Of a stretch of 64,000 nt of DNA, positions 15,318-32,553 are shown piece by piece. Numbering within the stretch: the first letter of the stretch is position 1; each line of letters opens with the position of its first letter. Made by a program: the position numbers and the translations under genes. The notes under the pieces are model-generated. The model saw nothing but the letters and a program-made list of their open reading frames with translations, was not told the origin of the DNA and did not search any database. This stretch comes from Rouxiella sp. S1S-2 (GTDB lineage Bacteria; Pseudomonadota; Gammaproteobacteria; Enterobacterales; Enterobacteriaceae): NCBI RefSeq assembly GCF_009208105.1, contig NZ_WFKL01000001.1, positions 2,108,001-2,172,000 of the forward strand. Direction: 5' to 3'.

Positions 15318-16202
15318 TCAAGCTGATGAATTGCTCTTACTTGATTTTGGATGATATTCTTCCCACAGCGTTGAGTTTTGCTCCCAGGGAGGGGCAACTT
15401 GGCGCCCTTTGTTGTAGAAAAACATTTTGCCGGTGAGTGCTATTCTATTTCTAAAGGCAAATCTCAATTCAGAGTTGGTATAGCTATCGTTATACTTATA
15501 AACAACCCAAGTGTCACTGATATCATCAAGTAAGAAGTGTATTTTTATTTTGTCATCAACCATGGCCATCTGCAGTCCACTCTTACATTTGGTTTTAATG
15601 TACTTTATAATAAAATTATCATCCAGTGGTGAGTCACAATCTGTATAGTTAATGCTTTTGGCCAATATATTACCCGTATTAAACTTGGTGTTTTTTTCTA
15701 GTGATAGAAAAGTTTTCCAATGGTGATAGGGATTAATTTTGTACTGCTGTGCAACGGTTTTATCAAATGAGACAATAGCGTTATATTTTCTGCTTAATGA
15801 TTGTCTTATTACGTCAATTTTTTCTTCCGTTGCATTGCGTTCAAGTCGCTTAAATGTTTTTATGTATTTATGATCTCGCAAGGGTTTATAAATTTGATTT
15901 TCCATTGCTTCAATATATGCGTCAATAGTATAAGCAGAGTTTTTTAATATTCCACATGGGCGCAAGATGCTAGCACAGCGAGTTCTTGTCCTCATTAAAC
16001 CATATATTAAATCCCCTTTATGATAATTTTCTTCAAAATCTTGCCACGCTATTGGTACTGATGGTCTATTAGTCCTTATATTGTTAACATTGCTTGAGCA
16101 ATCTGTGATGAAATCTTGCATTATACTGGTCGGGGATATGAAGTTATTATTGCTGATGCACTTTATGCGAGTAGACGGTTGGGTATTATTAAGTGGGTTC
16201 AT
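15318..16202 (-). CDS. Unrecognised AT-rich protein, paralog B of a tandem pair
   Basis: A 294-residue protein of a family I do not recognise. The start is taken as ATG 16202 rather than the TTG at 16217. It is a paralog of the next gene upstream on the same strand. Shared blocks are KGDLIYGL near the start, IDAYIEA, HHWKTFLSLE, KFNTGNILAKS and a strongly conserved C-terminus with VDDKIKIHFLLDD, SELRFAFRNR and VAPPWEQ. Conserved His, Asp, Glu and Trp residues suggest a folded, possibly enzymatic domain. No signal peptide or membrane segment is visible. Base composition is clearly more AT-rich than the flanking genes, suggesting horizontal acquisition. A secreted effector or toxin is one guess, without direct support. 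Confidence 0.65.
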   Translation of the reverse strand: MNPLNNTQPSTRIKCISNNNFISPTSIMQDFITDCSSNVNNIRTNRPSVPIAWQDFEENYHKGDLIYGLMRTRTRCASILRPCGILKNSAYTIDAYIEAMENQIYKPLRDHKYIKTFKRLERNATEEKIDVIRQSLSRKYNAIVSFDKTVAQQYKINPYHHWKTFLSLEKNTKFNTGNILAKSINYTDCDSPLDDNFIIKYIKTKCKSGLQMAMVDDKIKIHFLLDDISDTWVVYKYNDSYTNSELRFAFRNRIALTGKMFFYNKGRQVAPPWEQNSTLWEEYHPKSSKSNSSA

Positions 16203-16326
16203 GACACATATTCTCAAACAACTGTGCGTTATACAGTCAATGTTTTAATGGCAGGCTTGATCAGTAATAATTATATTCATGTCGAGGCAAAATTGAAAAT
16301 GCCCGTTTCAAGAGTCATCATTATTG

Positions 16327-17238
16327 TTATGGCTTCACACTCGCCGGCCTGTAGCTCGCCCACAGCATCGGGTCTTGCTCCCAGGGAGGGGCAACAACTT
16401 TCCCTTTTTCATAAAAATAGACCTTTCCTGCCAGCTTGTTTTTATTTCGAAATGCATAACGTAATTCGGAGGCGGTAATAGCATATTTGTTTTTATTGAC
16501 GACTAAACTGAAGTCTATGTCATCCAGTAAAAAATGCACTTTTATTGAATCATCTATAATCGCCATTTCAATGCCGCCTTTACTCATGCTTTTAGCGACT
16601 TGCATGATGAAATGATGTTTATTGTCATTGTGTTTTATTGTAATGTCAGTAAAGCTTTTTGCGAAAATAGTGCCTACATTGAACCTCTCAATCTTATTAA
16701 GGGATAAGTATTTTTCCCAATGAGGGAAAGGGAATTCTTTTTTTATTTTATCTTTAATTTCATTGAATGAAATGAATGAATTAAACATCTCGACGAGTTT
16801 GTTTTTAAATTCTTCGCTACAAACTCCGTGCTCTTTTAATCGATGCTTAGCGCATTCAGCTAAAAAATTTTTGTCTTCAAAGGGCGCTGTAACATAGCTA
16901 TCACTGTGATTTAAATAAGCATCTATTTCATGAGGTGTTACATTAAACTGAAGATCTAAATTTGGGTCACGCGCGCACTCATCTCTGTTGGATGTAAATC
17001 CGTAAAGTAAGTCTCCATTTTTAAAATTACTTGTTAAAGATGTACCTTTTGAGGGTGTGCAGGTTTTAATTTTTACCATTTTTATGAAAGTTTGTGTTTC
17101 ATTACTCAAAATAATTTCATGACTGTTAATTGATGCTTTGAAGCTTTCCGTGATTAATTTAGAAGGCGCTGTCTGCTCATCCGGAGTTGCATTAGCCTTA
17201 ACGGGCAACGATATGGAGGGCCTTACGGCAGAAAACAT
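16327..17238 (-). CDS. Unrecognised AT-rich protein, paralog A of a tandem pair
   Basis: A 303-residue protein; AAGGG precedes the ATG by about 7 bases. The first 60 residues differ from paralog B. After that the two share FKNGDLLYGF, EIDAYLN, PHWEKYLSL, RFNVGTIFAKS, IDDSIKVHFLLDD, SELRYAFRNK and KVVAPPWEQ, ending LWASYRP. A nearly identical DNA stretch encodes the PPWEQ region in both genes, which points to duplication or gene conversion. The ser/thr-rich N-terminus has no clear export signal. Both genes are on the minus strand about 120 bases apart and may be co-transcribed. Function unknown. Confidence 0.66.
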   Translation of the reverse strand: MFSAVRPSISLPVKANATPDEQTAPSKLITESFKASINSHEIILSNETQTFIKMVKIKTCTPSKGTSLTSNFKNGDLLYGFTSNRDECARDPNLDLQFNVTPHEIDAYLNHSDSYVTAPFEDKNFLAECAKHRLKEHGVCSEEFKNKLVEMFNSFISFNEIKDKIKKEFPFPHWEKYLSLNKIERFNVGTIFAKSFTDITIKHNDNKHHFIMQVAKSMSKGGIEMAIIDDSIKVHFLLDDIDFSLVVNKNKYAITASELRYAFRNKNKLAGKVYFYEKGKVVAPPWEQDPMLWASYRPASVKP

Positions 17239-17496: not shown

Positions 17497-18510
17497 ATGC
17501 AACAAATCCCAATGCCATACCTGTTATTTTTAGGTGACGTCATGGATCCACTGGCGGCGAAAACGGCGCGTGGCATCCACGTTTTTCGTCCAGAGTCCTG
17601 CGTCGGCCAGATTCGTCTGGCTACCGATTCAGTCTCTCTGGGGCTGGAAGAGATGGATATCGCCACCGCGAAGGCGCGTGGTGCACAAACGATGGTATTG
17701 GGGACTGCGAATGCCGGTGGCAAGCTGCCCGCTCATTGGATTGAATCAATTAAAACGGCTATTCGCACCGGTTTGAACGTGGCTAACGGACTGCATCAAG
17801 GCTTGAACGATATTCCTGAGCTGGTCGAGCTCGCTGCCGAGCACAGGGTACAGCTGTTCGACGTTCGCCACATGCGTCCTGAACTTGATGTGGGCAGCGG
17901 CAAAAAACGCAGCGGAAAAAGAATTCTGACCGTCGGCACAGACTGCTCCGTCGGCAAAATGTATACCTCACTGGCGTTAGAATCTGCGATGCGCGATATC
18001 GGCATGAAGGCAGATTTTCGCGCCACCGGCCAAACCGGCGTGCTGGTTGCCGGTGCCGGTATTGCCATTGATGCGGTCATCGCCGACTTTATTTCCGGTG
18101 CGGTGGAATCGCTTTCTCCCGCCAATGAAGAAGACCATTGGGACATCATTGAAGGTCAAGGCTCCCTTTATCATCCGTCGTTTGCCGGTGTGAGTATGGG
18201 CTTGATCCACGGCGCACAGGCGCACCTGTTGGTGATGTGCCATGAGCTGGGTCGCAAACACATGCGCCACCTGCCGCACCAGTTTATGCCGACGCTGAAA
18301 CAGTGTGTAGACACCAATCTGGCGGCCGCCAGCCTGACCAACCCTGGCGTACAGCTTGCCGGTTTCTCCCTGAACACCTCTGGCGTTGATGAAGCCGAAG
18401 CTAAAGCTGCACTGGCTGAAATCAGCCGTGAGTTTGGCGTTCCTGCTACTGACCCAGTGCGTTTCGGCATCAGCGATCTGGCGCAGGCCATCAAGGACCG
18501 TGGCTTATGA
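17497..18510 (+). CDS. dgcN: DUF1611 P-loop protein, DgcN-like (D-Glu N-acetyltransferase type)
   Basis: A 337-residue cytoplasmic protein of the DUF1611 family. An N-terminal Rossmann-like half is followed by a P-loop, GTDCSVGKMYT (147-157). Family members named DgcN are reported to acetylate D-glutamate or D-glutamine in a catabolic route with DgcA, an enolase-superfamily racemase. Here the stop overlaps the start of just such an enolase-superfamily gene by 4 bases, which supports the assignment. It is the first gene of a cluster continuing with a dipeptide transporter and peptidases. GAGAGAAACTC lies before the ATG. The exact substrate is inferred from context. Confidence 0.75.
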   Translation: MQQIPMPYLLFLGDVMDPLAAKTARGIHVFRPESCVGQIRLATDSVSLGLEEMDIATAKARGAQTMVLGTANAGGKLPAHWIESIKTAIRTGLNVANGLHQGLNDIPELVELAAEHRVQLFDVRHMRPELDVGSGKKRSGKRILTVGTDCSVGKMYTSLALESAMRDIGMKADFRATGQTGVLVAGAGIAIDAVIADFISGAVESLSPANEEDHWDIIEGQGSLYHPSFAGVSMGLIHGAQAHLLVMCHELGRKHMRHLPHQFMPTLKQCVDTNLAAASLTNPGVQLAGFSLNTSGVDEAEAKAALAEISREFGVPATDPVRFGISDLAQAIKDRGL

Positions 18511-19472
18511 TCCATTTTGATTTTCAGACAATAGCGCTTCCACTGGCCCGTCCTTTTGCTATCTCGCGCGGCGTGCGCACGGCCGTAACCGTAGTGCGCG
18601 TTACACTGACCGACGGCGAGATTATCGCCATGGGCGAGTGTACCCCAACAGCGCATTATCAGGAATCAGCGGAAAGCGTGTGCGAACAGCTGGCAAGCGT
18701 TCGCGCACAGGTTGAATCCGGTTTAACCCGCGAGGCGCTGCAGCAGGCGCTGCCTATTGGCTCGGCGCGTAATGCGCTCGATTGTGCAATGTGGCGTCTT
18801 GATGCTGCAAAACAGGGCAAATCAGTTTGGCAACTGCTTGATATGCAAGCCCCTGAAAGCGTGATCACCGCCGAAACGCTGAGTCTTGATACGCTGGAAA
18901 ATATGGCAAGCGCGGCGGCAGACGCCGTTTCCCGTGGCGCAAAACTGCTCAAAATCAAGCTCAACCGCGAGCAAATTATTGAGAAAGTGGCGGCCATACG
19001 CCACGCCGCACCGCAGGTCACGCTGGTGATTGACGCCAACGAAGCCTGGCTGGGGCTGGATCTCGAAAGCCTGTTTCAGGCGCTGCACGAATTCAACATT
19101 GCGATGATCGAACAGCCTTTACCTGCGGGCAACGATAAAGACTTGGTGCGTTGTTTGCATCCTATTCCCATCTGCGCCGACGAAAGCTGTCATCAGCGTT
19201 CCGATATTGCCGCACTGCGCGACCGCTACGAGATGATCAACATCAAGCTCGATAAATGCGGTGGGCTGACTGAAGCGTTGGCCATGGCGACTGAGGCCAA
19301 AGCATTAGGGTTGCGTTTGATGGTCGGCTGCATGCTCGGCTCTTCGCTGGCGATGGAAGCAGCGCTGCCGGTGGCAGTTCAGGCGGAACGGGTGGATCTC
19401 GACGGGCCGATCTGGCTTGCCGAGGACTATCAACCCGCGCTGCGCTACCAGCAGGGCGAAGTCTGGCTTTAA
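18507..19472 (+). CDS. dgcA: Enolase-superfamily epimerase, DgcA / L-Ala-D/L-Glu epimerase type
   Basis: A 321-residue protein with the capping domain at about 1-115 and a barrel at 120-315. Catalytic landmarks are all present: KIK with Lys149 and Lys151, metal ligands Asp176 (VIDANEAW), Glu202 (IEQPLP) and Asp225 (CADESC), and the opposite base Lys247 (INIKLDK). These positions equal those I recall for E. coli YcjG, the murein dipeptide epimerase. Pairing with DgcN suggests instead, or in addition, racemisation of N-acetyl-D-glutamate. It overlaps dgcN by 4 bases and is followed 30 bases later by the transporter ATPase. Either role fits recycling of D-glutamate-containing peptides. Confidence 0.8.
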   Translation: MIHFDFQTIALPLARPFAISRGVRTAVTVVRVTLTDGEIIAMGECTPTAHYQESAESVCEQLASVRAQVESGLTREALQQALPIGSARNALDCAMWRLDAAKQGKSVWQLLDMQAPESVITAETLSLDTLENMASAAADAVSRGAKLLKIKLNREQIIEKVAAIRHAAPQVTLVIDANEAWLGLDLESLFQALHEFNIAMIEQPLPAGNDKDLVRCLHPIPICADESCHQRSDIAALRDRYEMINIKLDKCGGLTEALAMATEAKALGLRLMVGCMLGSSLAMEAALPVAVQAERVDLDGPIWLAEDYQPALRYQQGEVWL

Positions 19473-19502
19473 ACATAATGATAATAAAGGAGCACGCTTT
19501 TG

Positions 19503-21407
<1,905 letters not shown>

Positions 21408-21435
21408 ATTTTCGGGACACTCACAGGAGAAGTAC

Positions 21436-22980
21436 ATGCATTCGATGTTAAATCGCAAAACTTTGCTGGCCGCCAGCCTGGCGCTTTGCTTCACCAGCTC
21501 GACGTTTGCCAAAGATCTCAGTATTTCGATGTACGCGGATGTCACGGGCTTTGACCCGCATGACACCACCGACACCCTGAGTTATTCGGTCCAGACCGGT
21601 ATTTTCCAGCGCCTGTTTGAATTTGATAACAAAATGAAAGTGATCCCGTTGCTGGCGACCGACTACACCAGCAACGACTCTGCCACCGTATTCACCATTA
21701 ACCTGCGCCAGGGGGTGACCTTCCAGGACGGCACGCCGTTTAATGCCGAAGCGGTAAAAGTTAACCTCGACAGACTGGCTAATCCGGCCAATCATCTGAA
21801 GCGTAATGGCCTGTTCAGCATGATTCAAACCGTGGAGGTGACCTCGCCTTATCAGGTGAAAATTACTCTCAACAAGCCATTTGGCGCGATGATCAACACC
21901 TTGGCGCACCCGTCTGCGGTGATGCACAGCCCGGCTTCTTTGAAAGCTTATCCAAACGAAGCTGACCTGAGTGTGCATCCGGTCGGTACCGGTCCATTCA
22001 AATTTGTTGAATGGCAGCAGGGTAAAGACGTCAAGCTGGTGAAGTATGACAATTACTGGCAAAAGGGGTGGCCAAAAGTTGACTCGGTGACCTTCTACCC
22101 GACGCCGGAAGACTCCACTCAGGTGGCGAAGCTGAAGTCTGGTGCGGTGCAGGCGGTGTATCCGCTGCCGTCTGATCTGGTGGATACGGTGAAAAGTGAC
22201 CCTAAACTCGACATTCAGAGCGACGCGGGTATCTACCTTTATTACATCGCTTTCAACACCCAAATGAAAGAGTTTAAAGATGTGCGCGTGCGTCAGGCAA
22301 TTAACTATGCCATTGACCGCAATTTGTGGCTGAAAGTCGGTTTCGCCGGACTGGGTGAACCTTCGACCTCGCCGCTGCCGAAAAACGTTCAGTTCTATCA
22401 GAAACAAACCTCACCCGATTACAGCTACAACATAGCAAAAGCGAAAGCGTTGCTGAAAGAGGCGGGCTATCCCAACGGCTTCGACGTTGAAATGTGGAGT
22501 TCAAACAAAACTGACCGCATTCGCACCGGCCAGTTTATCAAACAGCAGCTGGGGCTGATTGGCGTGCGCGTTAAGCAGGTCCCAATGGACGCGGGCAGCA
22601 TCACGCAAAAACTGTGGAGCACGCCGAATCCGGCTGACGCCAAGGTGCAGATGTACTACGGCGCATGGTCAACGTCGACCGGCGACGCCGACTGGGCGCT
22701 GCGTCCGCTGTTTGCCACAGAGTCATTTATTCCGAAAGGCTACAACGTCTCTTACTACAGCAATAAGGCCGTGGATGCAGATATTGCTGCCGGACTGCAA
22801 ACTGCGGATATGAGCAAACGCAAAGCCGCCTACGACGATGCGCAAAAGCTGCTGTGGGCCGATGCGCCGGTGGCCTATCTCGGTTCGCCTGACAACCTGG
22901 TGGGTAAAACCAAGGATTTGTCCGGCGTGTTTATGCTGGCAGACGGCACGCTGTTGTTTAATCAGGCTCAGTTTAAGTAA
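21436..22980 (+). CDS. Dipeptide-type periplasmic substrate-binding protein
   Basis: A 514-residue family 5 solute-binding protein (DppA/OppA/GsiB group). The signal peptide ends near residue 25 (SSTFA before KDLSISM); there is no lipobox, so it is a soluble periplasmic protein. Family marks include FDPHDTTDTLSYSVQ, VGTGPFKFVEW and the DVRVRQAINYAIDR stretch. AGGAGA sits 6 bases before the ATG. It follows the fused ATPase by 28 bases and is separated from the permease genes by a hairpin, which often keeps binding-protein mRNA in excess. The ligand is probably a short peptide given the D-peptide enzymes around it. Confidence 0.92.
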   Translation: MHSMLNRKTLLAASLALCFTSSTFAKDLSISMYADVTGFDPHDTTDTLSYSVQTGIFQRLFEFDNKMKVIPLLATDYTSNDSATVFTINLRQGVTFQDGTPFNAEAVKVNLDRLANPANHLKRNGLFSMIQTVEVTSPYQVKITLNKPFGAMINTLAHPSAVMHSPASLKAYPNEADLSVHPVGTGPFKFVEWQQGKDVKLVKYDNYWQKGWPKVDSVTFYPTPEDSTQVAKLKSGAVQAVYPLPSDLVDTVKSDPKLDIQSDAGIYLYYIAFNTQMKEFKDVRVRQAINYAIDRNLWLKVGFAGLGEPSTSPLPKNVQFYQKQTSPDYSYNIAKAKALLKEAGYPNGFDVEMWSSNKTDRIRTGQFIKQQLGLIGVRVKQVPMDAGSITQKLWSTPNPADAKVQMYYGAWSTSTGDADWALRPLFATESFIPKGYNVSYYSNKAVDADIAAGLQTADMSKRKAAYDDAQKLLWADAPVAYLGSPDNLVGKTKDLSGVFMLADGTLLFNQAQFK

Positions 22981-23040
22981 CGCCATCATGGCTCCAACGG
23001 TGGGCTAACGCTAAAAAAGCGTGGTTTGTTCGAGAGAAGT

Positions 23041-23062
23041 ACGGGCAGGATCACCTGCCCGT
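23041..23062. terminator. Intra-operon hairpin between binding protein and permease
   Basis: ACGGGCAGG-ATCA-CCTGCCCGT is a perfect 9-bp stem with a 4-base loop and no U-run. In transporter operons such a stem after the binding-protein gene is typically an mRNA stabiliser or partial terminator. Confidence 0.6.
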
Positions 23063-23118
23063 GACCCTGCATTGTGAATGCTTTTGGGTATCGTTTATTG
23101 AGCGGGGAATGAGACTTT

Positions 23119-24039
23119 ATGCTGACGTATTTTATTCGCCGAATACTGGAAATGATCCCGGTTTTGCTGGTGGTGTCATTACTGATATTTGGTTTTATCA
23201 AGCTGCTGCCGGGTGACCCTGCACGTATTTATGCCGGTCAGGATGCCTCACTTGAGCAGGTAGAGTCAGCGCGGCAACTGCTTGGTTTAAACGCACCGCT
23301 ACCCGCACAGTATTGGCGCTGGATAAGCGGAGTATTTCACGGCGATTTGGGCACGACTTATCGCACGCGCCAGCCGGTGATGAGTGTGATAGAGGCCGGG
23401 TTTATGCCCACCTTGTATCTGGCGATGGCCGGTTTTGCCTGGTCGGTGGTCTTGGGGCTGGTTATCGGCGTTTGGGCGGCGCTCAAGCGCGGAAAATGGC
23501 AGGACTGGACGCTGATGACCTTCGCCATCGGGGGGATTTCAATGCCGCCGTTTTGGCTTGGCCTGCTGTTAATACAGTTTGTGGCGATGCCGTTCGGGAT
23601 TTTTTCAGTCAGCGGCTTTAATAAACCGACCGACATTATTTTGCCTGCCATTACGCTAGGATCCTCGGTGGCCGCTGTGATGGCGAGATTTACCCGCTCG
23701 GCATTTCTCGACGTGGCGCAGGAGGACTATGTGCGTACCGCCAATGCCAAAGGGTTGCGTTCAAGGTTAGTGACCTGGAAACATGTGATGCGCAATGCGC
23801 TGATCCCAGTTATCACCATGCTTGGTCTGCAGTTTGGATTCCTGCTTGGCGGCTCTATTATCGTAGAAGCAGTTTTCAGCTGGCCCGGTCTGGGATGGCT
23901 GCTTATTCAGTCGATTCAAACGCAGGATCAGCCGGTGATTCAGGCGCTGGTGATGCTGTTTGTATTCGAATTTATTGTGATTAATACGCTGGTCGACCTG
24001 CTTTATGCGGTGGTTAACCCGTCTATCAGACTGAGTTAG
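23119..24039 (+). CDS. Dipeptide-type ABC transporter permease, DppB/GsiC-like
   Basis: A 306-residue inner-membrane protein with six predicted helices. It begins MLTYFIRRILEMIPVLLVVS, typical of DppB/OppB/GsiC permeases, and carries the EAA-type cytoplasmic loop DYVRTANAKGLRSRLVTWKHVMRNALIPVI near 205-235 (given here in parts of the conserved loop). It pairs with the next permease to form the translocation channel. It lies between a hairpin and the second permease, 8 bases apart. Confidence 0.92.
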   Translation: MLTYFIRRILEMIPVLLVVSLLIFGFIKLLPGDPARIYAGQDASLEQVESARQLLGLNAPLPAQYWRWISGVFHGDLGTTYRTRQPVMSVIEAGFMPTLYLAMAGFAWSVVLGLVIGVWAALKRGKWQDWTLMTFAIGGISMPPFWLGLLLIQFVAMPFGIFSVSGFNKPTDIILPAITLGSSVAAVMARFTRSAFLDVAQEDYVRTANAKGLRSRLVTWKHVMRNALIPVITMLGLQFGFLLGGSIIVEAVFSWPGLGWLLIQSIQTQDQPVIQALVMLFVFEFIVINTLVDLLYAVVNPSIRLS

Positions 24040-24047
24040 GAGCGAAG

Positions 24048-24962
24048 ATGGTTCAGCCCGCCAATACCCTGCCGCCGTTGGATCCTGCCAACGTCGCCAG
24101 CCGTTCGGACGATGATATTCAGGCTCCTTGGCTGGATTTTCTTCAGTCTTTTATTCGCCACCCCATGGCGATTATCTCCTCTATTTTTATTCTGTTTCTG
24201 CTGCTGGTGGCAATATTTGCTCCGTGGATTGCGCCTTATGATCCGCAGGTTCCCGACTGGATGGCCTTGGGTGCCGGTCCCTCTGCCGCGCACTGGTTTG
24301 GCACCGATGACCTCGGGCGTGATGTGCTTAGCCGTATTATTTATGGTGCGCGTATTTCGCTTTACGTCGGATTACTGTCGGTTACGCTAGGCATGGTGCT
24401 GGGCGTGATTCTTGGACTGCTTGCCGGTTACTACGGCAAGTGGCTCGATATGCTGATTATGCGCGGGTCCGACGTGCTGTTCGCGTTTCCCGGCGTGATG
24501 CTGGCCATCGCCGTTGTCGCCATTCTTGGCCCGGGTTTGAATAATGTGATTATTGCAGTGGCGGTGTTTAGCGTGCCGGTATTTGCCCGCATTGTGCGCG
24601 CCTCCACGCTGTCGATTAAGCAAAGTGCCTACGTTGAGGCGGTGCGCTGCGTCGGTGCGCCAGATCGCGTCGTGCTGCTGCGCCACATTCTTCCCGGCAC
24701 CTTGTCGAACGTGATTGTCTATTTCACCATGCGTATCGGCACCAGTATTTTGACCGCCGCCAGCCTGAGTTTCATCGGTTTAGGACCCGAGCCGGACGTG
24801 CCTGAGTGGGGCAATATTCTGGCGATGAGCCGCAATATGATGATGGCAGGTAAATGGAACGTCAGCGTATTTCCGGGGCTGGCGATATTTTTGACCGTGC
24901 TGGCGTTTAACCTGCTGGGTGATGCGTTACGCGATACGCTCGACCCTAAACTTAAAAAATAA
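24048..24962 (+). CDS. Dipeptide-type ABC transporter permease, DppC/GsiD-like
   Basis: A 304-residue inner-membrane protein. The hydrophilic N-terminus is followed by a helix and the family signature HWFGTDDLGRDVLSR (about 82-96), characteristic of DppC/OppC/GsiD. The EAA-type loop is YVEAVRCVGAPDRVVLLRHI around 192-211. It completes the transporter with the fused ATPase, binding protein and first permease. A palindromic repeat starts at its stop codon. Confidence 0.92.
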   Translation: MVQPANTLPPLDPANVASRSDDDIQAPWLDFLQSFIRHPMAIISSIFILFLLLVAIFAPWIAPYDPQVPDWMALGAGPSAAHWFGTDDLGRDVLSRIIYGARISLYVGLLSVTLGMVLGVILGLLAGYYGKWLDMLIMRGSDVLFAFPGVMLAIAVVAILGPGLNNVIIAVAVFSVPVFARIVRASTLSIKQSAYVEAVRCVGAPDRVVLLRHILPGTLSNVIVYFTMRIGTSILTAASLSFIGLGPEPDVPEWGNILAMSRNMMMAGKWNVSVFPGLAIFLTVLAFNLLGDALRDTLDPKLKK

Positions 24963-25080
24963 ATCACCGTCGTCATCAACACTGCAGCGGTGTTGGCTGC
25001 GTTCGCTTACCCCCGGTCACGGACTTGAGTCAGCTCCCGGGTATGCACTCGCTTGCCGCCTTGCTGCAGCGTAGGTGATT
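24962..25080. repeat. Intergenic palindromic repeat (Yersinia/Serratia type)
   Basis: A roughly 119-base imperfect palindrome fills the gap between the permease and the P1 peptidase gene. Outer arms are AATCACC and GGTGATT, next arms CTGCAGC (24982) and GCTGCAG (25063), and the centre holds CCCGG...CCGGG around GACTTGAGTC. The phrase GGCTGCGTTCGCTTAC and its partner CGCTTGCCGCCTTGCTGC resemble an abundant intergenic repeat I recall from Yersinia, Serratia and Photorhabdus genomes. It is transcribed within the presumed operon and may act as an RNA hairpin. Only one copy was noticed in this window. Confidence 0.7.
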
Positions 25081-25108
25081 GGCGATATTTATAATAGTTG
25101 GATATTAC

Positions 25109-26170
25109 ATGCATGCAGATAATTTTACCTCGCAGGGCGTACGCGCACTATTGAACCGCTGGCGTGAAAGTCGGCTGATATTTACCCCGCGTTTTGCGAC
25201 CGGTGCTACCAACAGTATCAGCGACGTGGCGGGGGTGATGGTAGGTCACAGCACGCTGAGCGACGGGGATATTCAGACCGGTGTCACGGCCATTGTGCCT
25301 CCAGGCGACAATCTTTATACCCATCCTTTGCCCTGCGGTGCGGCAGTGTTGAACGGTTTTGCCAAGCCGATGGGGCTGACGCAAATAATGGAGCTTGGCG
25401 AGTTGCAAACGCCGATTTTACTCAGCAACACCTTCGCCGTCGGCACGCTGTTTAACGCGATGGTGAGGCAGAGCTGCGTCAATTTTCCGCAGATTGGCAG
25501 AGGCAGCGCTACCGTGAATCCACTGGTGCTGGAGTGTAACGACGCCTTCCTGAACGATATTCAGGCGATGGCCGTTGGTGAGCACAATGCACAGGATGCG
25601 TTGCAGTCGGCTTCTAAACGCTTTACGCGCGGCAGCGTTGGCGCGGGGCGTGGCATGAGCTGTTTCGGACTGAAAGGCGGGATCGGCACGGCGTCGCGTC
25701 GTGATGAAAAACAAGATATTCAGCTTGGGGTGCTGGTGTTGGCCAACTTTGGCGTGTTGTCGGAACTGACTCTCGATGGCGTGCGCATCGGCGCAGATAT
25801 TGAACGCCTACTGCCCGAACTCGCGCCGCAGGTTGATGCCGGTTCAATCATTATCATCATGGCCTGCGATCGCTATCTCGACAGCCGCCAATTGACGCGC
25901 ATTGCCCGCCGTGCGGGCGCAGGACTTGGCCGGCTGGGCAGCTATTGGGGGCACGGATCGGGGGACATCGCGGTCGCGTTTTCTACCCGCCGCGCGGGCG
26001 AACTGCTGCCCGATGAGCAACTTGAATCGCTGCTGGCGATGGCGGCCGATGCAACGGAACAGGCCGTTCTGGATGCGATGCTGGCGGCCGAAACGGTGGT
26101 GGGTTATCAGCAGCACTCGCGTTTAGGTCTGAGCGAGGTTCTGGATAGCCTGGCCGCCCCCGGTTTTTAG
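25109..26170 (+). CDS. P1-family aminopeptidase (DmpA/BapA type, autoprocessed)
   Basis: A 353-residue member of the DmpA family of N-terminal nucleophile hydrolases, which release N-terminal residues from peptides, amides and esters, some with D- or beta-amino acids. The enzyme cuts itself into two chains before a Ser. The expected site is Gly245-Ser246 in AGSIIIIMACDRY, close to Gly249-Ser250 of DmpA as I recall it. The conserved GSVGAGRGMSCFGLKGGIG element lies at about 175-195. No export signal is visible, so it is likely cytoplasmic. ATG 25109 gives the normal N-terminus; the open frame extends to TTG 25079. It lies downstream of the importer, as expected for a peptidase acting on imported peptides. 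Confidence 0.85.
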   Translation: MHADNFTSQGVRALLNRWRESRLIFTPRFATGATNSISDVAGVMVGHSTLSDGDIQTGVTAIVPPGDNLYTHPLPCGAAVLNGFAKPMGLTQIMELGELQTPILLSNTFAVGTLFNAMVRQSCVNFPQIGRGSATVNPLVLECNDAFLNDIQAMAVGEHNAQDALQSASKRFTRGSVGAGRGMSCFGLKGGIGTASRRDEKQDIQLGVLVLANFGVLSELTLDGVRIGADIERLLPELAPQVDAGSIIIIMACDRYLDSRQLTRIARRAGAGLGRLGSYWGHGSGDIAVAFSTRRAGELLPDEQLESLLAMAADATEQAVLDAMLAAETVVGYQQHSRLGLSEVLDSLAAPGF

Positions 26171-26234
26171 AGTCGACAGTTTGAATCGACAGTTTGAGTC
26201 GATAATCTACATCATCAATTTAAAGAGACCAAAG

Positions 26235-27056
26235 ATGAAAGTGTTTATTTCTGCCGATATAGAAGGCATCGCCGGAGTTATGCGCCCTGAACAATGCAGT
26301 CCCGGCCACGTTGAGTATGAAACCGCCCGCGGACTGATGGAGCAAGAGGTCAATGCGGCCATCTGTGGTGCGTTTGACGCAGGCGCAACCGAAGTTGTCG
26401 TCGCCGACAGTCACGCCATGATGCAGAACCTGCGCGCCGCTAATATCGACCCACGAGCACGACTGGTACAGGGCAAACCGCGCGGTTTATCGATGCTCGA
26501 AGGACTGCAGCAGGGCGGTTACGACGGCATGATGTTTGTAGGATTTCACAGCGCCGCCGGGGAGAAGGGCGTGTTGGCGCACACTATTAATGGCCGTGCT
26601 TTTTACCGCATCAAACTCAATGGCAGCGTGATGGGCGAAACGGATCTCTATGCCGCACTCGGTGGTGAACTGAACGTTCCGCTGTGGTTGGTGACCGGTG
26701 ACGACCAGTTGGAGCAGTGGGTAGGGCGCCACTATCCTGACGTCAATTATGTGTGTGTAAAACGCGCGATTTCTGCCAATGCCGCCGAGTCGCTAAGCCC
26801 TGATGTTTCACGCGATAAAATTCGCCAACAGGCGACAAAAGCAGTCACGACGGCGCGTAAAAGTGTTGAACGTCGCTTTGGCTCCCCGCACAAGCTAGAG
26901 CTGATGGTGGCTAAACCGGTCTTGGCCGACCTGTTCTGCATGATACCCGGCGTAGAGCGCATTGACGGCATTACCGTCGGTTATAGCAGCCCGAACGTTG
27001 CGACCATCATCAGCCTGCTTGGCGCTTTCTCTTATCTGGCGTCAACGCAAAATTAA
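26235..27056 (+). CDS. M55-family D-aminopeptidase, DppA type
   Basis: A 273-residue zinc D-aminopeptidase homolog. The motif SADIEG gives metal ligands Asp8 and Glu10; His60 (ADSH), His105 (GFH) and Glu135 (MGETD) complete the site, and His116 matches the catalytic His of B. subtilis DppA. That enzyme releases D-Ala-type residues from peptides and forms a decameric ring. The family N-terminus MKVFISADIEG fixes the start at 26235 rather than the upstream frame. The short gap before it holds a tandem repeat of TCGACAGTTTGA. It is the last structural gene of the D-peptide cluster. Confidence 0.88.
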   Translation: MKVFISADIEGIAGVMRPEQCSPGHVEYETARGLMEQEVNAAICGAFDAGATEVVVADSHAMMQNLRAANIDPRARLVQGKPRGLSMLEGLQQGGYDGMMFVGFHSAAGEKGVLAHTINGRAFYRIKLNGSVMGETDLYAALGGELNVPLWLVTGDDQLEQWVGRHYPDVNYVCVKRAISANAAESLSPDVSRDKIRQQATKAVTTARKSVERRFGSPHKLELMVAKPVLADLFCMIPGVERIDGITVGYSSPNVATIISLLGAFSYLASTQN

Positions 27057-27277
27057 AAATCGTGCGTTATCGTTTTTATTTTTACAGCCATGAGCCGAAT
27101 GAACCTGCAGATATTCATGTTGATAAGGACAGTGCAACGGCTAAAATAGGGTGACATAATTTGAGCGTTGCAAGTAGCGTGGGATTCCCCTCACATTAAC
27201 TCCGTGCGCTATCTCTTTCTTCTGCCCGCACTGACTGATAGTGCAGAATATATCCGTCATCCACAGGGAAGGGCAGC

Positions 27278-28171
27278 ATGCGTTTGCGTCATATTGAAGT
27301 GTTTCAGGCGGTATTGCAGGCCGGCAGCGTGAGTGGCGCGGCGCGGTTGCTCAACGTATCGCAACCCAATGTTAGTCGGGTGCTGAGTCATGCCGAGCAG
27401 CTGCTAGGGTTTACCTTGTTTGACCGCACCCCGCAGGGGCTGATAGTGACGCCAGAAGGCCGCCGCCTAATGCCTGAGGTCGAGGCACTTTTTAGCCATA
27501 TTCAGGCGATTGGATTTTTAGCCGAGCAGCTGCGTCAGGGAGAAGGTCAGCACGTGAGAATTGGCTCTGCTCACGCCCTGGGCCACAGCGTGATGGCACC
27601 GGTACTGGTGGATTTTCATCGTAAAATGCCCGCCGGCACTGTCGAACTGGTGACCGGACATTTTAATACCCTCAGCCAGGATCTTATCCAGTACAAAATG
27701 GATTTTGCCCTGGCGTTTGGCGAGCAGGTTTCTGCCGAACTGGTTTCAGAAACGCTGTACTCTGCCAACATGGTCGCCCTGCTGCCGCTTGATTGTACGA
27801 CTGAAGGGCCGGTGACGCTGAAGTGGTTGTGTGAAAATAATTTACTGATGCTCCAGCAGCAGGACCCACTCGGACAGGTGCTCAATCGGGTATTGCGCGA
27901 ACAGGGCCTCACCCCGCGAGCTTCCGTGCACATTAAAACCTATTCGGTTATTGCCGATATGGTCTTGGCCGGTGGCGGCGTTGGTGTGGTCGACACTTTT
28001 ACCGCACAGCGCTACGTTAATCAGCTCAACATTGTGCCGGTGGTTGAAACTTTGCCGTTTGAGGTGATTTTACTCAGCCGCCGCGACCAGCCTCAGTCAC
28101 AGGTTGGCTTGGCGTTGCAACAGCTAATCCGCCATAAGCTGTGGGAAATCAGTGAACATATTGCGGGCTAG
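27278..28171 (+). CDS. LysR-family transcriptional regulator of the D-peptide cluster
   Basis: A 297-residue regulator with an N-terminal winged helix-turn-helix (about 1-60, QAGSVSGAARLLNVSQPNVSRVLSHAEQLLG) and a C-terminal periplasmic-binding-like effector domain (about 90-290). It follows the M55 gene in the same direction after 221 bases that hold no other gene. It ends at a bidirectional hairpin shared with the dehydrogenase operon. Position suggests it controls the 17.5-27 kb cluster, with a D-amino acid or peptide as effector; this is inference. No obvious T-N11-A operator was chosen. Confidence 0.85.
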   Translation: MRLRHIEVFQAVLQAGSVSGAARLLNVSQPNVSRVLSHAEQLLGFTLFDRTPQGLIVTPEGRRLMPEVEALFSHIQAIGFLAEQLRQGEGQHVRIGSAHALGHSVMAPVLVDFHRKMPAGTVELVTGHFNTLSQDLIQYKMDFALAFGEQVSAELVSETLYSANMVALLPLDCTTEGPVTLKWLCENNLLMLQQQDPLGQVLNRVLREQGLTPRASVHIKTYSVIADMVLAGGGVGVVDTFTAQRYVNQLNIVPVVETLPFEVILLSRRDQPQSQVGLALQQLIRHKLWEISEHIAG

Positions 28172-28183
28172 TTGCCAATAAAA

Positions 28184-28211
28184 AACAAGGGTGCATCGCT
28201 GCGCCCTTGTT
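28184..28211. terminator. Bidirectional terminator between LysR and cytochrome c genes
   Basis: AACAAGGGTGC, a 6-base loop and GCGCCCTTGTT form an 11-bp stem with one G-T pair. An A-run on the left serves as a U-run for the minus strand, and T-rich sequence follows on the right. It lies between two convergent genes. Confidence 0.8.
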
Positions 28212-28225
28212 GTGCTTTTCCAGTC

Positions 28226-29464
28226 TTATTCCTCGCGCAGATTTTTACGCAGGCTTTTCACGTCGCCACTGCTGACCGCAGCCGCCGAATTCCCCCAGCT
28301 GTTGCGAATGTAAGTCAGCACATTAGCCACGTCGGCGTCGCTCATATTGTCAGCAAACGACGGCATGCCCGGCGCAGTAGGCGCGGCGTGGGTATCCACA
28401 GGACGACTGCCGGCCAGCACCACGTGGATTAGCGAGGTCGCATTGTCACTGACAATGAGCGGCGAGTTCGCCAGCCGTGGGAATAACCCTTCCTGACCCG
28501 CGCCGTTAGGCGTATGACACGCAGAACAGCGGTCAGCATAAATTGCTTTCCCGGCGATCATGCTGCTGTCATTGGTTTTTATCGGCTCAGGGGCCTTTGA
28601 CCCACTGTCGTGGCCACTGTCCTTAAGATAAACTGCCACCGCCTTCAAGTCTGCGTCGGTCCACAGGTTCGACGAGTTTTTAACCTCCTCGGCCATCGGG
28701 CCAGACGCCATGTCGAAGCGATTTGAACCGTTTTTCAGGTAGGCGGTAATATCTTCAATCGTCCATTTCCCCAGACCTGTATGATTATTAACGGTGATGT
28801 CCGGAGCCATCCAGCCTTCAACCACGGCACCTCGCAGAAACTCGCTATTTTTGTCCCCGCCGAGCAGATTTTTCGGCGTATGACAGGTGCCGCAGTGCCC
28901 TAGTCCCTCCACAATATACGCGCCGCGGTTCCAGTCAGCGGACTTCTTCAAATCGGGAATGAACGCGCCTTGATCAAAGTTAATCCAGTTCCAGGCGATC
29001 AGGCTCGTACGAATGTTGAACGGGAAGGGCAGTTGATTGGTTTGCACCGCGTTATGCACCGGCTGTAGGGTTTGCAGATATTCCCAAATCGCCCGATTGT
29101 CTGCTTTCGTCACCTTGGTATAGGCGGTAAAAGGCATCGCGCCATACAGCCTGATCCCATCATGACCTACGCCTTCTGACATGGCACGTTGAAAATCATC
29201 AAACGTCCACTTGCCAATTCCGGTATCGGGATCGGGGGTAATATTGGCACCCATCAGCACGCCAAACGGTGTTTGCAGGGACACGCCACCGGCAAAAGGT
29301 TTGCTGCCTTCAACGCCGGAAGTGTGACAGGCGGCGCAGTCGCCCAGCACCGCCAGATAGCGGCCGCGCTCAACCTGAGAATAGTCCCCATTGCCGGCCG
29401 CGTGGGCTAACGTGCTGACGCCCAGTGCCAGCAGTGCCAGAGAGAATGACCTCAGTTTTTTCAT
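28226..29464 (-). CDS. Triheme cytochrome c subunit of membrane sugar/alcohol dehydrogenase
   Basis: A 412-residue periplasmic protein with a signal peptide (about 1-22, ending AHA). Three heme c sites are present: CAACH (43-47), CGTCH (191-195) and CSACH (313-317). This is the electron-transfer subunit of gluconate 2-dehydrogenase-type and FAD-glucose-dehydrogenase-type complexes, passing electrons from the flavoprotein to ubiquinone. The start overlaps the flavoprotein stop by 4 bases. It is the last gene of a three-gene minus-strand operon. Confidence 0.93.
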   Translation of the reverse strand: MKKLRSFSLALLALGVSTLAHAAGNGDYSQVERGRYLAVLGDCAACHTSGVEGSKPFAGGVSLQTPFGVLMGANITPDPDTGIGKWTFDDFQRAMSEGVGHDGIRLYGAMPFTAYTKVTKADNRAIWEYLQTLQPVHNAVQTNQLPFPFNIRTSLIAWNWINFDQGAFIPDLKKSADWNRGAYIVEGLGHCGTCHTPKNLLGGDKNSEFLRGAVVEGWMAPDITVNNHTGLGKWTIEDITAYLKNGSNRFDMASGPMAEEVKNSSNLWTDADLKAVAVYLKDSGHDSGSKAPEPIKTNDSSMIAGKAIYADRCSACHTPNGAGQEGLFPRLANSPLIVSDNATSLIHVVLAGSRPVDTHAAPTAPGMPSFADNMSDADVANVLTYIRNSWGNSAAAVSSGDVKSLRKNLREE

Positions 29465-31224
29465 GCAATCATCTCCCCAGGATTTTTCAGATAGCGCTCG
29501 CGAATCGCTTCGGCCGCTTTGAACGCCAGTGCACCAACAGTTCCGGTTGGGTTATAGCCTGGGTTTTGCGGGAAAGCAGAAGCGCCGACCACAAACAGGT
29601 TAGGCACGTCCCACACTTGCAGATATTTGTTTACCGAACTGGTCGAGGGGTCAGCCCCCATAACAAACCCGCCGCAAACGTGTGAAGACTGGTAAGGCGT
29701 CCCGTTCCAGTGCCCCTTAGTGGGGCTTTCAACGTACTGACGCGGATTCATTGCTTTGGCGATTTCACCCACTTTATCGGTGCAGTATTGCGCCATTTTC
29801 AAGTCGTTCTGCGGAAAGTCGAAGGTCACACGCAGCAGCGGGCGACCCAGTGGATCTTTATAGGTCGGATCGAGCGAAAGATAGTTGGTGCGTATAGTGT
29901 AACTGCTGGCCTCGCAGCCTATCGACATACTGCTCAAATAGTTTTTGACCGTCGCCTGCTTCCACTCTTTGCCCCATTTAGGCGTACCCGGTGGCACCGG
30001 CCGGTAGCCGATAGGGGCCGCGCCAATTGGCGTGACGCGAATACTGCCGCCGCCGAAGAAGCCGAGTCCACTGTGGTCAAAGTTATCGTTGTTGTATTCG
30101 TCAATTCCCATGCCGACGGCACCGGCGCCAATAAACGGGTTAAAGTTTTTGTCGTCAAAGAACAGCTGCACGCCGTTGGCCGTCTGGTAGGCGTAGTTGC
30201 GGCCGGTGGTGCCGGTATTGCTCACCGGATCATAAGGTTTGCCAATCCCAGAGAGTAGCATCAGGCGCACGTTTTCAAAGGTATAGGCGCTAACCACCAC
30301 CAGTTCCGCGGGCTGTTCCCACTCATCGCCGGAGGAGTCGATATAGATAACGCCGGTCGCCTTTTTACCGCTTGAATCCATCACCACTTTCATCACTTCA
30401 CAGCTGGTGCGCGCTTCAAAATTGTTCTTACGGATCAAAGCAGGCAGAACCGTAGTGATGGCACTGGCTTTCGAATAGTTTGCGCAGCCGTAGTTGGTGC
30501 AAAAGCCGCAGAAGGTGCAAGGGCCCATTTTCACGCCGAGTGGGTTAGTGTAAGGCTCGGAAATAAGCGAAGAAGGCACTGGGAAGGCTTTATAGCCCAT
30601 GTTGCGTGCGGCTTCGGCAAACAGCGTGGGGCCGTAGGGTTGGTCCATTGGGCGAGTCGGGTACTCAATGGAGCGCATCCCTTCGAAAGGATTGCCGCCT
30701 TCATGATGTTCACCGTTAACGTTGGCGGCCTTGCCCGAAACGCCGGCCAGGCGTTCAAACGAGGCGTAGTGCGGCTCCATTTCGCTCCAGTCTGTGCCCC
30801 AGTCTTGCAGAACCAGCTCGGAAGGCATTTCTTTGGCGCCGTATTTTTCCAGCAGATAGCTGCGTAACCTAAATTCGTTTGGCTGGAAGCGGAAGGTAAT
30901 GCCCGCCCAGTGGTTGCCCGCACCGCCTGTGCCGTTGCCCGGGTGGAACGAACCCCATTCGCGCATCGGTAGCGCGGTTTGCGAGGGATTATTACGAATA
31001 GTAATGGTGTTTTGACGGTTGCGCAGCATCAATTCTTCACGGCTGTTGTAGCGCAGCTCGTCAGCAACGGTTGCAATATTAAAATCACGCGCAGTGTCGC
31101 GCCACGGGCCGCGTTCAATCGCCACTACGTCGAGGCCTGCTTCAGTCAGCTCGTGCGCAATAATCGATCCCGCCCAGCCGAGACCAATGACGACCACGTC
31201 GGTCTTGGGGAGTTTCTTCGCCAT
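29461..31224 (-). CDS. GMC-family FAD dehydrogenase subunit (gluconate/glucose type)
   Basis: A 587-residue flavoprotein. The FAD-binding GLGWAG (14-19) lies in VVVIGLGWAGSIIAHEL, and the C-terminal GMC block includes SSHVCGG and NPGYNPTGTVGALAFKAAE. A cluster of Cys236, Cys239, Cys242 and Cys247 (GPCTFCGFCTNYGC) matches the region reported to hold a [3Fe-4S] cluster in Burkholderia FAD-glucose dehydrogenase. It oxidises a sugar, sugar acid or polyol in the periplasm and feeds electrons to the triheme subunit. Export probably depends on the Tat signal of the small subunit upstream. Gluconate to 2-ketogluconate is the most likely reaction, but glucose or sorbitol cannot be excluded. Confidence 0.9.
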   Translation of the reverse strand: MAKKLPKTDVVVIGLGWAGSIIAHELTEAGLDVVAIERGPWRDTARDFNIATVADELRYNSREELMLRNRQNTITIRNNPSQTALPMREWGSFHPGNGTGGAGNHWAGITFRFQPNEFRLRSYLLEKYGAKEMPSELVLQDWGTDWSEMEPHYASFERLAGVSGKAANVNGEHHEGGNPFEGMRSIEYPTRPMDQPYGPTLFAEAARNMGYKAFPVPSSLISEPYTNPLGVKMGPCTFCGFCTNYGCANYSKASAITTVLPALIRKNNFEARTSCEVMKVVMDSSGKKATGVIYIDSSGDEWEQPAELVVVSAYTFENVRLMLLSGIGKPYDPVSNTGTTGRNYAYQTANGVQLFFDDKNFNPFIGAGAVGMGIDEYNNDNFDHSGLGFFGGGSIRVTPIGAAPIGYRPVPPGTPKWGKEWKQATVKNYLSSMSIGCEASSYTIRTNYLSLDPTYKDPLGRPLLRVTFDFPQNDLKMAQYCTDKVGEIAKAMNPRQYVESPTKGHWNGTPYQSSHVCGGFVMGADPSTSSVNKYLQVWDVPNLFVVGASAFPQNPGYNPTGTVGALAFKAAEAIRERYLKNPGEMIA

Positions 31225-31250
31225 AATATGATGTCCTTAAGCCGTGGCCC

Positions 31251-32021
31251 TTAGCTTTTTGATACCTTCCACGCATCGCCGCCGGAGATGCTGAGAGGTT
31301 CGAGATCCAGTTTTTGGTTATGCTTGCCAATATATTCGCGGTAGTCGTAGCGTGCGCCCGGAAATCCGAGCATCTTCCACGACACCATGTTGCGATTACC
31401 GCCGTAGATAGGATCAGCAAAGAAACCCTCCATGGTGTTTTTCAGCACGATGGCGAAAAACAGTTTGGAGTCGATAGGGTTCTTAAAACTGGATGCATTA
31501 AGGTCAATTTTTCCACTTTCCAGACCGGAGAGCACCTCGTCTTGCTGGTCAGCAGTCAGGTCTTTAAAGGATTTTTTAAAGCTGTTCTGGGTGTACTCTT
31601 CAAGGGCAGCAAGCCCGATACGATAGCGCTGCTGTGGTACCAAGGGGGACTGGTCGCCCTGTTCCGGCGTGCCTGGCTGGAAAGGGCCCTGCATGTAAAG
31701 ACGTTCATAGGTGCCATAGAACCCGACCATCTGGCGGTCAATAAAGACCGCACAACCCGCTTCTTTACCGCCGATGCTGAGATTGTCGGCCGGAATAAGC
31801 CGGTCAACAATGGCTTCGAGGGCCGCCGCTTCAGCATCGTTAAAGAACACCCAGCCATCGGTTTCAATTTGCGGAGGAGGACTGCTGTCGAAAGGACTCC
31901 AGGTAGGTGTACCTTTAAGGCTGACGGCGTTGGCCGCCTTTGCCGCGCCGAGAACGGCGGATGCGGCTGAAAACGTTAGAATTTGCCGACGAGTAATGCC
32001 CGGCAAGGTTTTTTTGCTCAT
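31251..32021 (-). CDS. Gluconate 2-dehydrogenase subunit 3 family, Tat-exported small subunit
   Basis: A 256-residue protein with a twin-arginine signal (TRRQILTFS near residues 10-18, then a hydrophobic run ending AANA at about 32). It belongs to the gluconate 2-dehydrogenase subunit 3 family, which has no cofactor but acts as the export escort for the folded flavoprotein. It is the first gene of the operon; GGGGA precedes the ATG. The gap to the flavoprotein is 26 bases. Confidence 0.9.
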   Translation of the reverse strand: MSKKTLPGITRRQILTFSAASAVLGAAKAANAVSLKGTPTWSPFDSSPPPQIETDGWVFFNDAEAAALEAIVDRLIPADNLSIGGKEAGCAVFIDRQMVGFYGTYERLYMQGPFQPGTPEQGDQSPLVPQQRYRIGLAALEEYTQNSFKKSFKDLTADQQDEVLSGLESGKIDLNASSFKNPIDSKLFFAIVLKNTMEGFFADPIYGGNRNMVSWKMLGFPGARYDYREYIGKHNQKLDLEPLSISGGDAWKVSKS

Positions 32022-32544: not shown

Positions 32545-32553
32545 GTGTGGATT

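Follow-up and report, generated by a model that had tools for sequence, protein, structure and literature searches.

Why would a putative D-glutamate N-acetyltransferase gene, dgcN, lie in a row with a peptide importer and two unusual peptidases? The stretch analyzed here, positions 17497-28171 on the + strand of a 64,000-nucleotide window from Rouxiella sp. S1S-2 (genome of 5.36 Mb in two contigs), is occupied by nine intact open reading frames (ORFs), all on that strand: dgcN, an enolase-superfamily racemase gene, four importer genes resembling gsiABCD, two peptidase genes of the S58 (P1/DmpA) and M55 (DppA) types, and lysR (Table 1). The sequence-only reading of this DNA had claimed a cluster in one direction over 10.7 kb, and the ORF listing agrees in both respects. 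With a little better than even confidence, we interpret the cluster as an operon for the nutrient use of D-amino-acid peptides, D-glutamate included, through the N-acetyl route of DgcN and DgcA; the substrates, cotranscription, and regulation that this entails are predicted.

Conservation of the gene set

With the M55 protein as query, 85 relatives were found, and the 80 top-ranking loci were retained and scored for gene content at 45% identity and 75% coverage; the rows are not all independent, as apparent duplicates occur (e.g., L138/L022, L139/L066, and L137/L081). In 47 of the 80 loci, the eight genes from dgcN to the M55 gene are all present, keep their order, and share a strand. Within these 47, lysR was present at 2.5 kb or less in 27, farther away in 17, and undetected at this threshold in 3. 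Another 17 loci, from Pectobacterium, Brenneria, Symbiopectobacterium, and one labeled Serratia marcescens (L081), hold the other seven genes without dgcN, which shows that the rest of the cluster can do without DgcN. In one of the Pectobacterium loci (L027), the cluster begins with the racemase gene, and the upstream ORFs, which we take to be pyrE and rph, are unrelated. The other 16 loci are incomplete through contig ends, decay, or reduction; in Serratia (L040, L044, L047, and L051), for example, nothing but the dmpA-M55 pair is left. Among the named loci fetched, the closest was that of Rouxiella silvae, with 90-100% protein identity.

In the family survey (246 genomes), M55 was present in 35 genomes, S58 in 45, and DgcN over its cut-off in 32. 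S58 was found within 2 kb of M55 in 35/35 genomes, a few being broken, and DgcN within 12 kb of M55 in 21/35, one copy being broken. DgcN and M55 occurred together in 25 of the 246 genomes (34 with DgcN, 35 with M55; Fisher p = 6e-19, uncorrected for relatedness), where the 34 include the broken copies of G140 and G142 and leave out the fragment-only genomes G164, G220, and G226. The co-conservation for which a genome-context survey had been suggested is thus seen in the eight-gene order as well as in the S58-M55 neighborhood. Fourteen M55 loci have no linked DgcN, and the 13 that were read (G350 is not among them) consist of seven dgcN-less clusters with the isoaspartyl dipeptidase gene iaaA, four canonical gsi operons that continue into dmpA-M55, and two loci with a dmpA-M55 pair, of which one is broken. 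M55 over the cut-off is rare in the class (5/369 genomes, Rouxiella included) and was found in 3/119 genomes of the order sample. The other four class loci gave no S58, DgcN, or racemase match in the short stretches covered, and in G060, one of the three genomes from the order sample, M55 was the sole cluster gene found within the 20 kb read.

DgcN and the racemase

Family profiles agree with the earlier assignment of DgcN-like, P1-type, M55, and LysR genes (bit scores in Table 1), and solved relatives were reachable by sequence for all five proteins compared. The racemase, previously described as a DgcA/YcjG-like epimerase, exceeds the cut-offs of both the DgcA model (438/400 bits) and the YcjG model (388/343 bits). 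The genome's own YcjG also passes the DgcA model (407 bits), so the NCBIfam DgcA label does not discriminate, and it was dropped as proof of function. This true YcjG, which reaches 550 bits against the YcjG model, is encoded elsewhere in the genome beside tpx, and the cluster racemase is therefore not the standard dipeptide epimerase of this strain.

In the racemase tree (107 of 113 rows, identical rows dropped), cluster genes form a single clade (73 rows, support 100/100) and YcjG proteins a separate one (16 rows, 100/99); the window racemase is not inside the YcjG clade, and the sister position of the two clades is weak (96/36). In the DgcN tree (53 of 78 rows), cluster DgcN proteins likewise form a single clade (99/96), with those of genomes G262 and G281 included. 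Two loci in which dgcN-dgcA stand beside a LysR gene (L112 and L114) join the cluster in both trees (DgcN, 98/90; racemase, 100/98) and are the nearest to it among the rows with only dgcN-dgcA. YcjG falls inside the same 100/98 racemase set, in which the order of the three groups is weak (96/36). The trees are in agreement with DgcN and racemase having descended together, which is short of proof since YcjG shares the racemase set.

Residues were counted over the same 107 rows, divided into YcjG (n = 16), dgcN-dgcA only (n = 18), clusters with dgcN (n = 52), and clusters without dgcN (n = 21). K149, K151, D176, E202, D225, K247, and the D297-x-D299 pair are invariant in all four groups; these are the presumed catalytic residues, and the D-x-D pair would bind the dipeptide amino terminus. 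The racemase, S58, and M55 motifs are all seen in the alignments, in line with the earlier claim that catalytic residues are present. Position 48 is Thr in 51/52 cluster rows with dgcN and Tyr in YcjG (16/16) and in dgcN-dgcA-only rows (17/18), while Trp303 is common to YcjG and the cluster racemases, with Leu in its place in 17/18 dgcN-dgcA-only rows. Reading a substrate off these residues was given up, as they do not decide it.

Some of this evidence fits another explanation, namely, recycling or scavenging of murein peptides in the manner of YcjG/Ykf, in which imported L-Ala-gamma-D-Glu would be epimerized at the dipeptide stage and the resulting L-Ala-L-Glu cleaved by ordinary peptidases, M55 would remove D-Ala, and DgcN would have a side branch or some other role. 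It draws on the YcjG model being passed, on D297-x-D299 and W303 being as in YcjG, on the strongly supported set that joins YcjG and the cluster racemase with L112/L114, on the 17 loci that keep the other seven genes without dgcN, and on the neighborhood of ykfABCD and dppB-E in Bacillus subtilis (PMC2954226). Still, no LD-carboxypeptidase or gamma-D-Glu-DAP endopeptidase was found among the nine proteins by profile matches, the genome has a YcjG of its own, and the DgcN and racemase trees give the same nearest relatives, which together make murein recycling as the principal function rather unlikely. MpaA gave no match in the genome in one search, weak evidence that can be read either way. Of the earlier proposal that the whole may recycle murein peptides or scavenge D-peptides, the second part is strengthened by relatives that carry additional hydrolases of D-peptide or isopeptide type (see below), whereas murein is just one possible source and a separate YcjG is kept.

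The racemases of dgcN-less clusters form a clade nested within the cluster clade (94/96) and have lost residues that are invariant or nearly so elsewhere. R21 is retained in 2/21 of them versus 52/52 in clusters with dgcN, and N178, E179, H229, and M276 are retained in 5/21, 7/21, 2/21, and 7/21, respectively. This change hints that the cluster racemase works together with the adjacent DgcN. Four of the seven dgcN-less genomes in the family survey carry an unlinked DgcN elsewhere, so the changes are not simply due to a cell without DgcN; the other three (G218, G263, and G353) have no DgcN. The family also has a second DgcN type that is not linked to the cluster, with a racemase gene adjacent in 8 of the 11 copies read and in none of L121-L123.

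A separate observation concerns the strongly reduced 0.94-Mb genome G262, where an intact dgcN (505 bits, 41% G+C) is found at L098 9166-10170 among other ORFs of 29-40% G+C and with flanks of 17-21% G+C. Its nonsynonymous distance to the nearest tree relative is 0.15, with synonymous sites saturated, and no racemase, S58, or M55 gene was found in the 20 kb read. A DgcN function independent of DgcA may be the reason for its retention.

The importer

All four importer proteins have GsiA, GsiB, GsiC, or GsiD as best match and all fall below the respective Gsi cut-offs (Table 1); the fused ATPase passes broader models, including the dipeptide-transporter ATPase subfamily (551/408 bits). The binding protein is 39% identical to Escherichia coli GsiB, compared with 74% for the genome's own GsiB, which is encoded elsewhere, and the cluster importer is thus not the standard glutathione importer of the genome. 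The cluster racemase and importer are paralogues distinct from YcjG and GsiB. In an alignment with E. coli GsiB, DppA, and MppA, the binding protein and GsiB have Ser where DppA and MppA have Asp, presumably the anchor of the peptide amino terminus, which argues against the name "dipeptide transporter". The full transporter described earlier is therefore present as a four-gene importer, but Gsi-like rather than Dpp-like. Peptide-type ABC binding proteins are numerous in this genome, which gave 29 matches to E. coli GsiB.

Such an importer could also be at home in salvage of glutathione or gamma-glutamyl compounds and isopeptides, where the peptidases would act on unusual bonds (beta-aspartyl, beta- or gamma-linked) and D-residues would be secondary. 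GsiABCD being the best-matching transporter and the GsiB-like Ser are both in its favor, as are two arrangements in other genomes. A canonical iaaA-gsiABCD operon (64-81% identity to E. coli) continues into diverged dmpA (47-49%) and M55 (42-43%) genes in L128, L130, and L131, and L127 has the same gsi-dmpA-M55 arrangement within a fetched stretch whose end cuts iaaA; further, iaaA (63-67% to E. coli) is found downstream of M55 in 25/80 loci. The separate GsiB and the scores below the Gsi cut-offs count against it, and to our knowledge DgcN, the racemase, and M55 have no role in glutathione use. We regard this explanation as unlikely.

Peptidases, regulator, and added hydrolases

The S58 protein has a full-length Pfam match, and its Gly-Ser site, which we take to be the self-cleavage site, aligns with those of the solved 1b65 and 2drh. 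The M55 match extends over residues 1-262 of 264, and its Asp, Glu, and His motifs, presumably metal ligands, align with B. subtilis DppA (1hi9), from which the protein is nevertheless distant (166 bits against a cut-off of 430, NF058634). The S58 gene is broken into separate pieces in L066 and L139, which appear to be one and the same Pantoea ananatis plasmid, while the annotation of a second P. ananatis plasmid shows a single P1 peptidase gene.

When the LysR protein next to dgcN in L111 was searched against the genome, the cluster LysR was the best of 64 LysR matches (136 versus 93 bits). In genome G281, only dgcN and lysR are left of the cluster genes in the 20 kb read, adjacent to each other at L099 9350-11321, a pair that would fit LysR control of dgcN.

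Besides iaaA, hydrolase genes downstream of M55 encode an S12 hydrolase in 26/80 loci and an M19 dipeptidase in 25/80. The nearest solved chain to the S12 protein is 1ei5, an Ochrobactrum D-aminopeptidase (75 bits), and it reaches 95 bits against a D-aminopeptidase model with a cut-off of 443; for M19, the nearest is 3ly0 (359 bits). In 25 loci, the S12/M19 genes come with a binding protein that belongs to a second ABC importer for peptides, and the block lies mostly between M55 and lysR, being beyond lysR in L029, L033, and L080. These additions are the best contextual evidence for a theme of peptides that resist ordinary peptidases, among them those with D-residues. The extra hydrolase and importer genes were not found in the window, where the search matched only the cluster's own binding protein. 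At L046 10974-19808 and similar loci, the downstream block consists of a FAH-family protein (14/80 loci), the S12 hydrolase, the second peptide importer, and the M19 dipeptidase.

Origin and plasmid copies

Judging by the trees and the best match of the L111 LysR, dgcN, the racemase gene, and lysR look like a dgcR-dgcN-dgcA module. The importer-peptidase half appears to be related to the E. coli glutathione operon, since canonical gsi operons run into dmpA-M55 in other genomes.

Plasmid records matched M55 (n = 129) and DgcN (n = 100), with Klebsiella, Enterobacter, and Pantoea in the best listed rows and Ensifer, Sinorhizobium, Vibrio, and others also named in the tallies. The copy on pKPN_CZ has 63-84% protein identity to the window, and its eight genes are tightly packed, with two pairs overlapping by 4 bp, which favors a single transcript. 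At least 80% of the pKPN_CZ cluster is held by 35 plasmid records: 23 at 99% or more (20 Klebsiella and 3 Enterobacter) and 12 from P. ananatis at about 88%. It is also found in 5 of 5,426 E. coli genomes, where it is chromosomal. Public records name the genes singly, as DgcN, DgcA, P1 peptidase, and M55 peptidase, and among the names under which they are deposited are "glutathione ABC transporter substrate-binding protein", GsiA, and BapA. A "glutathione ABC-transport system" on Klebsiella pKPN-307 plasmids appears in PMC5506382, but its identity with the cluster is rejected for now, as its record KY271404 is not among the 35 records; the available part of PMC4349654 makes no mention of glutathione. 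Another gsiA-like gene is located upstream of the cluster on pKPN_CZ.

A wider model can be offered tentatively, being possible rather than probable. It sees a modular Enterobacterales island for D-peptides and isopeptides, in which dgcR-dgcN-dgcA was joined to an extended iaaA-gsiABCD-dmpA-dppA operon to give a full route from imported D-Glu peptides to L-Glu. IaaA, M19, and S12 would have been gained or lost by lineage, racemase specificity would have been altered where dgcN left the cluster (Pectobacterium, Brenneria, and Symbiopectobacterium), and plasmids would have moved the island into Klebsiella and Enterobacter, with its importer mislabeled as glutathione transport.

Proposed route

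DgcN is known to N-acetylate D-Glu, and DgcA racemizes the product to N-acetyl-L-Glu. In the D-peptide operon proposed here, the Gsi-like importer would take up short D-residue-containing or gamma-linked peptides, from which the cytosolic S58 and M55 peptidases would set D-amino acids (D-Ala and D-Glu) free. DgcN would then convert D-Glu to N-acetyl-D-Glu, the DgcA-like racemase would convert this to N-acetyl-L-Glu, and a housekeeping deacylase would release L-Glu, with LysR possibly acting as the sensor of a pathway compound.

Several observations speak against this proposal. The racemase matches both the DgcA and YcjG models, and YcjG matches the DgcA model; the D-x-D pair is retained in all four racemase groups. 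The 17 seven-gene loci do without dgcN, and four of the seven dgcN-less family genomes have an unlinked copy. One locus has dgcN without the racemase gene (L033) and two have the enzymes without the transporter (L022 and L105), while the nearest named kin of the importer is a glutathione carrier. The unlinked DgcN copies weaken the D-peptide/D-Glu interpretation slightly, and our confidence was lowered slightly for them.

Gene structure and surroundings

Table 1. Features of the cluster and its 3' end in the window
Feature	Position	Strand	Evidence
dgcN, DUF1611 family, putative D-glutamate N-acetyltransferase	17497..18510	+	NF041892 522 bits, cut-off 480; nearest solved chain 7xrj, 334 bits
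dgcA/ycjG-like racemase/epimerase, enolase superfamily	18507..19472	+	NF042940 438 bits, NF011708 388 bits, both above cut-off
gsiA-like fused ABC ATPase	19503..21407	+	NF007613 824 bits, below cut-off 1077; passes broader dipeptide ATPase subfamily
gsiB-like periplasmic binding protein, SBP_bac_5	21436..22980	+	NF011942 474 bits, below cut-off 594
gsiC-like permease	23119..24039	+	384 bits, below cut-off 463; Pfam BPD_transp_1
gsiD-like permease	24048..24962	+	410 bits, below cut-off 484; Pfam BPD_transp_1, OppC_N
S58 (P1/DmpA-type) self-cleaving peptidase	25109..26170	+	PF03576 333 bits; aligns with 2drh, 1b65
M55 zinc D-aminopeptidase-like protein, DppA type	26235..27056	+	PF04951 311 bits; aligns with 1hi9
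LysR regulator, putative orthologue of the DgcR-like LysR upstream of dgcN-dgcA in the order's other families	27278..28171	+	
Terminator-like hairpin 3' of lysR	28184-28211	+	Pattern scan

From dgcN to lysR, the intergenic gaps are -4, 30, 28, 138, 8, 146, 64, and 221 bp, the first being a 4-bp overlap of dgcN and the racemase gene and the rest 8-221 bp. Longer ORFs with TTG starts exist for the gsiA-like gene (19500) and S58 (25079). In our judgment, the ATG starts at 25109 (S58) and 26235 (M55) are likely to be used over longer TTG ORFs, although neither is preceded by a strong ribosome site. In the terminator pattern scan, hairpins in the region were not enriched over shuffles (15 versus 13.4), nor were promoter-like sites clearly so (10 versus 7.2).

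Upstream on the - strand (15318-17238), two tandem ORFs without a Pfam match weakly resemble secreted effectors of the EspK/GogB type at the C-terminus, with scores of 21 and 27 bits that are far short of the cut-offs. Downstream (28226-32021, - strand), a cytochrome c, a weakly GMC oxidoreductase-like protein, and a gluconate 2-dehydrogenase subunit 3 are encoded one after another and may form a periplasmic sugar-acid dehydrogenase, and an inverse autotransporter beta-domain protein is encoded at 32545-34095.

Relation to known systems and meaning

A dgcR-dgcN-dgcA pathway for D-glutamate was reportedly described in a 2023 paper in ISME J, and PMC10845958 and PMC12363236 name the DgcN-DgcA pathway and dgcN, respectively. 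The cluster shares with it the adjacent DgcN and DgcA-like racemase genes and a DgcR-like LysR, but adds an importer and two peptidases, and its racemase has a clade of its own and Thr48 instead of Tyr. With E. coli iaaA-gsiABCD (NC_000913.3), it shares the four importer genes in the same order; unlike there, iaaA is not among the nine genes, dgcN, the racemase gene, dmpA, and M55 are added, and the binding protein has diverged from GsiB. The B. subtilis dpp operon, headed by dppA, together with ykf likewise combines an M55-type enzyme, a dipeptide-type importer, and a gene like that for L-Ala-D/L-Glu epimerase. We know of no DgcN or S58 in that system, and YkfA- or YkfC-type murein peptidases were not found among the nine proteins here, whose M55 member is far below the DppA cut-off. 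E. coli YcjG, an L-Ala-D/L-Glu epimerase that goes with MpaA, resembles the cluster racemase in the model passed and in catalytic residues but differs in clade, and in Rouxiella it has its own counterpart beside tpx.

The cluster thus recombines known modules (dgcR-dgcN-dgcA, iaaA-gsiABCD, and Bacillus dpp-ykf) and is not a new kind of system. The literature search, in which most subscription journals were out of reach, found no paper on this gene combination; the earlier suggestion that it is undescribed stands to that extent, tempered by genes already named singly in records and by an idea resembling B. subtilis dpp-ykf. Also seen in this analysis are the altered racemase in dgcN-less clusters of Pectobacterium, Brenneria, and Symbiopectobacterium, the extension of a canonical iaaA-gsiABCD operon by dmpA-M55 in some genomes, and near-identical clusters on Klebsiella and Enterobacter plasmids.

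Cell walls and aged proteins supply a large pool of D-amino-acid peptides as nutrients, and little is known about the organisms that use it. If the D-peptide interpretation is true, a conserved cluster that takes such peptides up and carries them through to L-Glu, in enterobacteria as well as on plasmids from clinical genera, would give a genetic handle on these users, and automatic "glutathione transporter" labels would need correcting. The dgcN-less sister clusters are a natural test of the role of the racemase.

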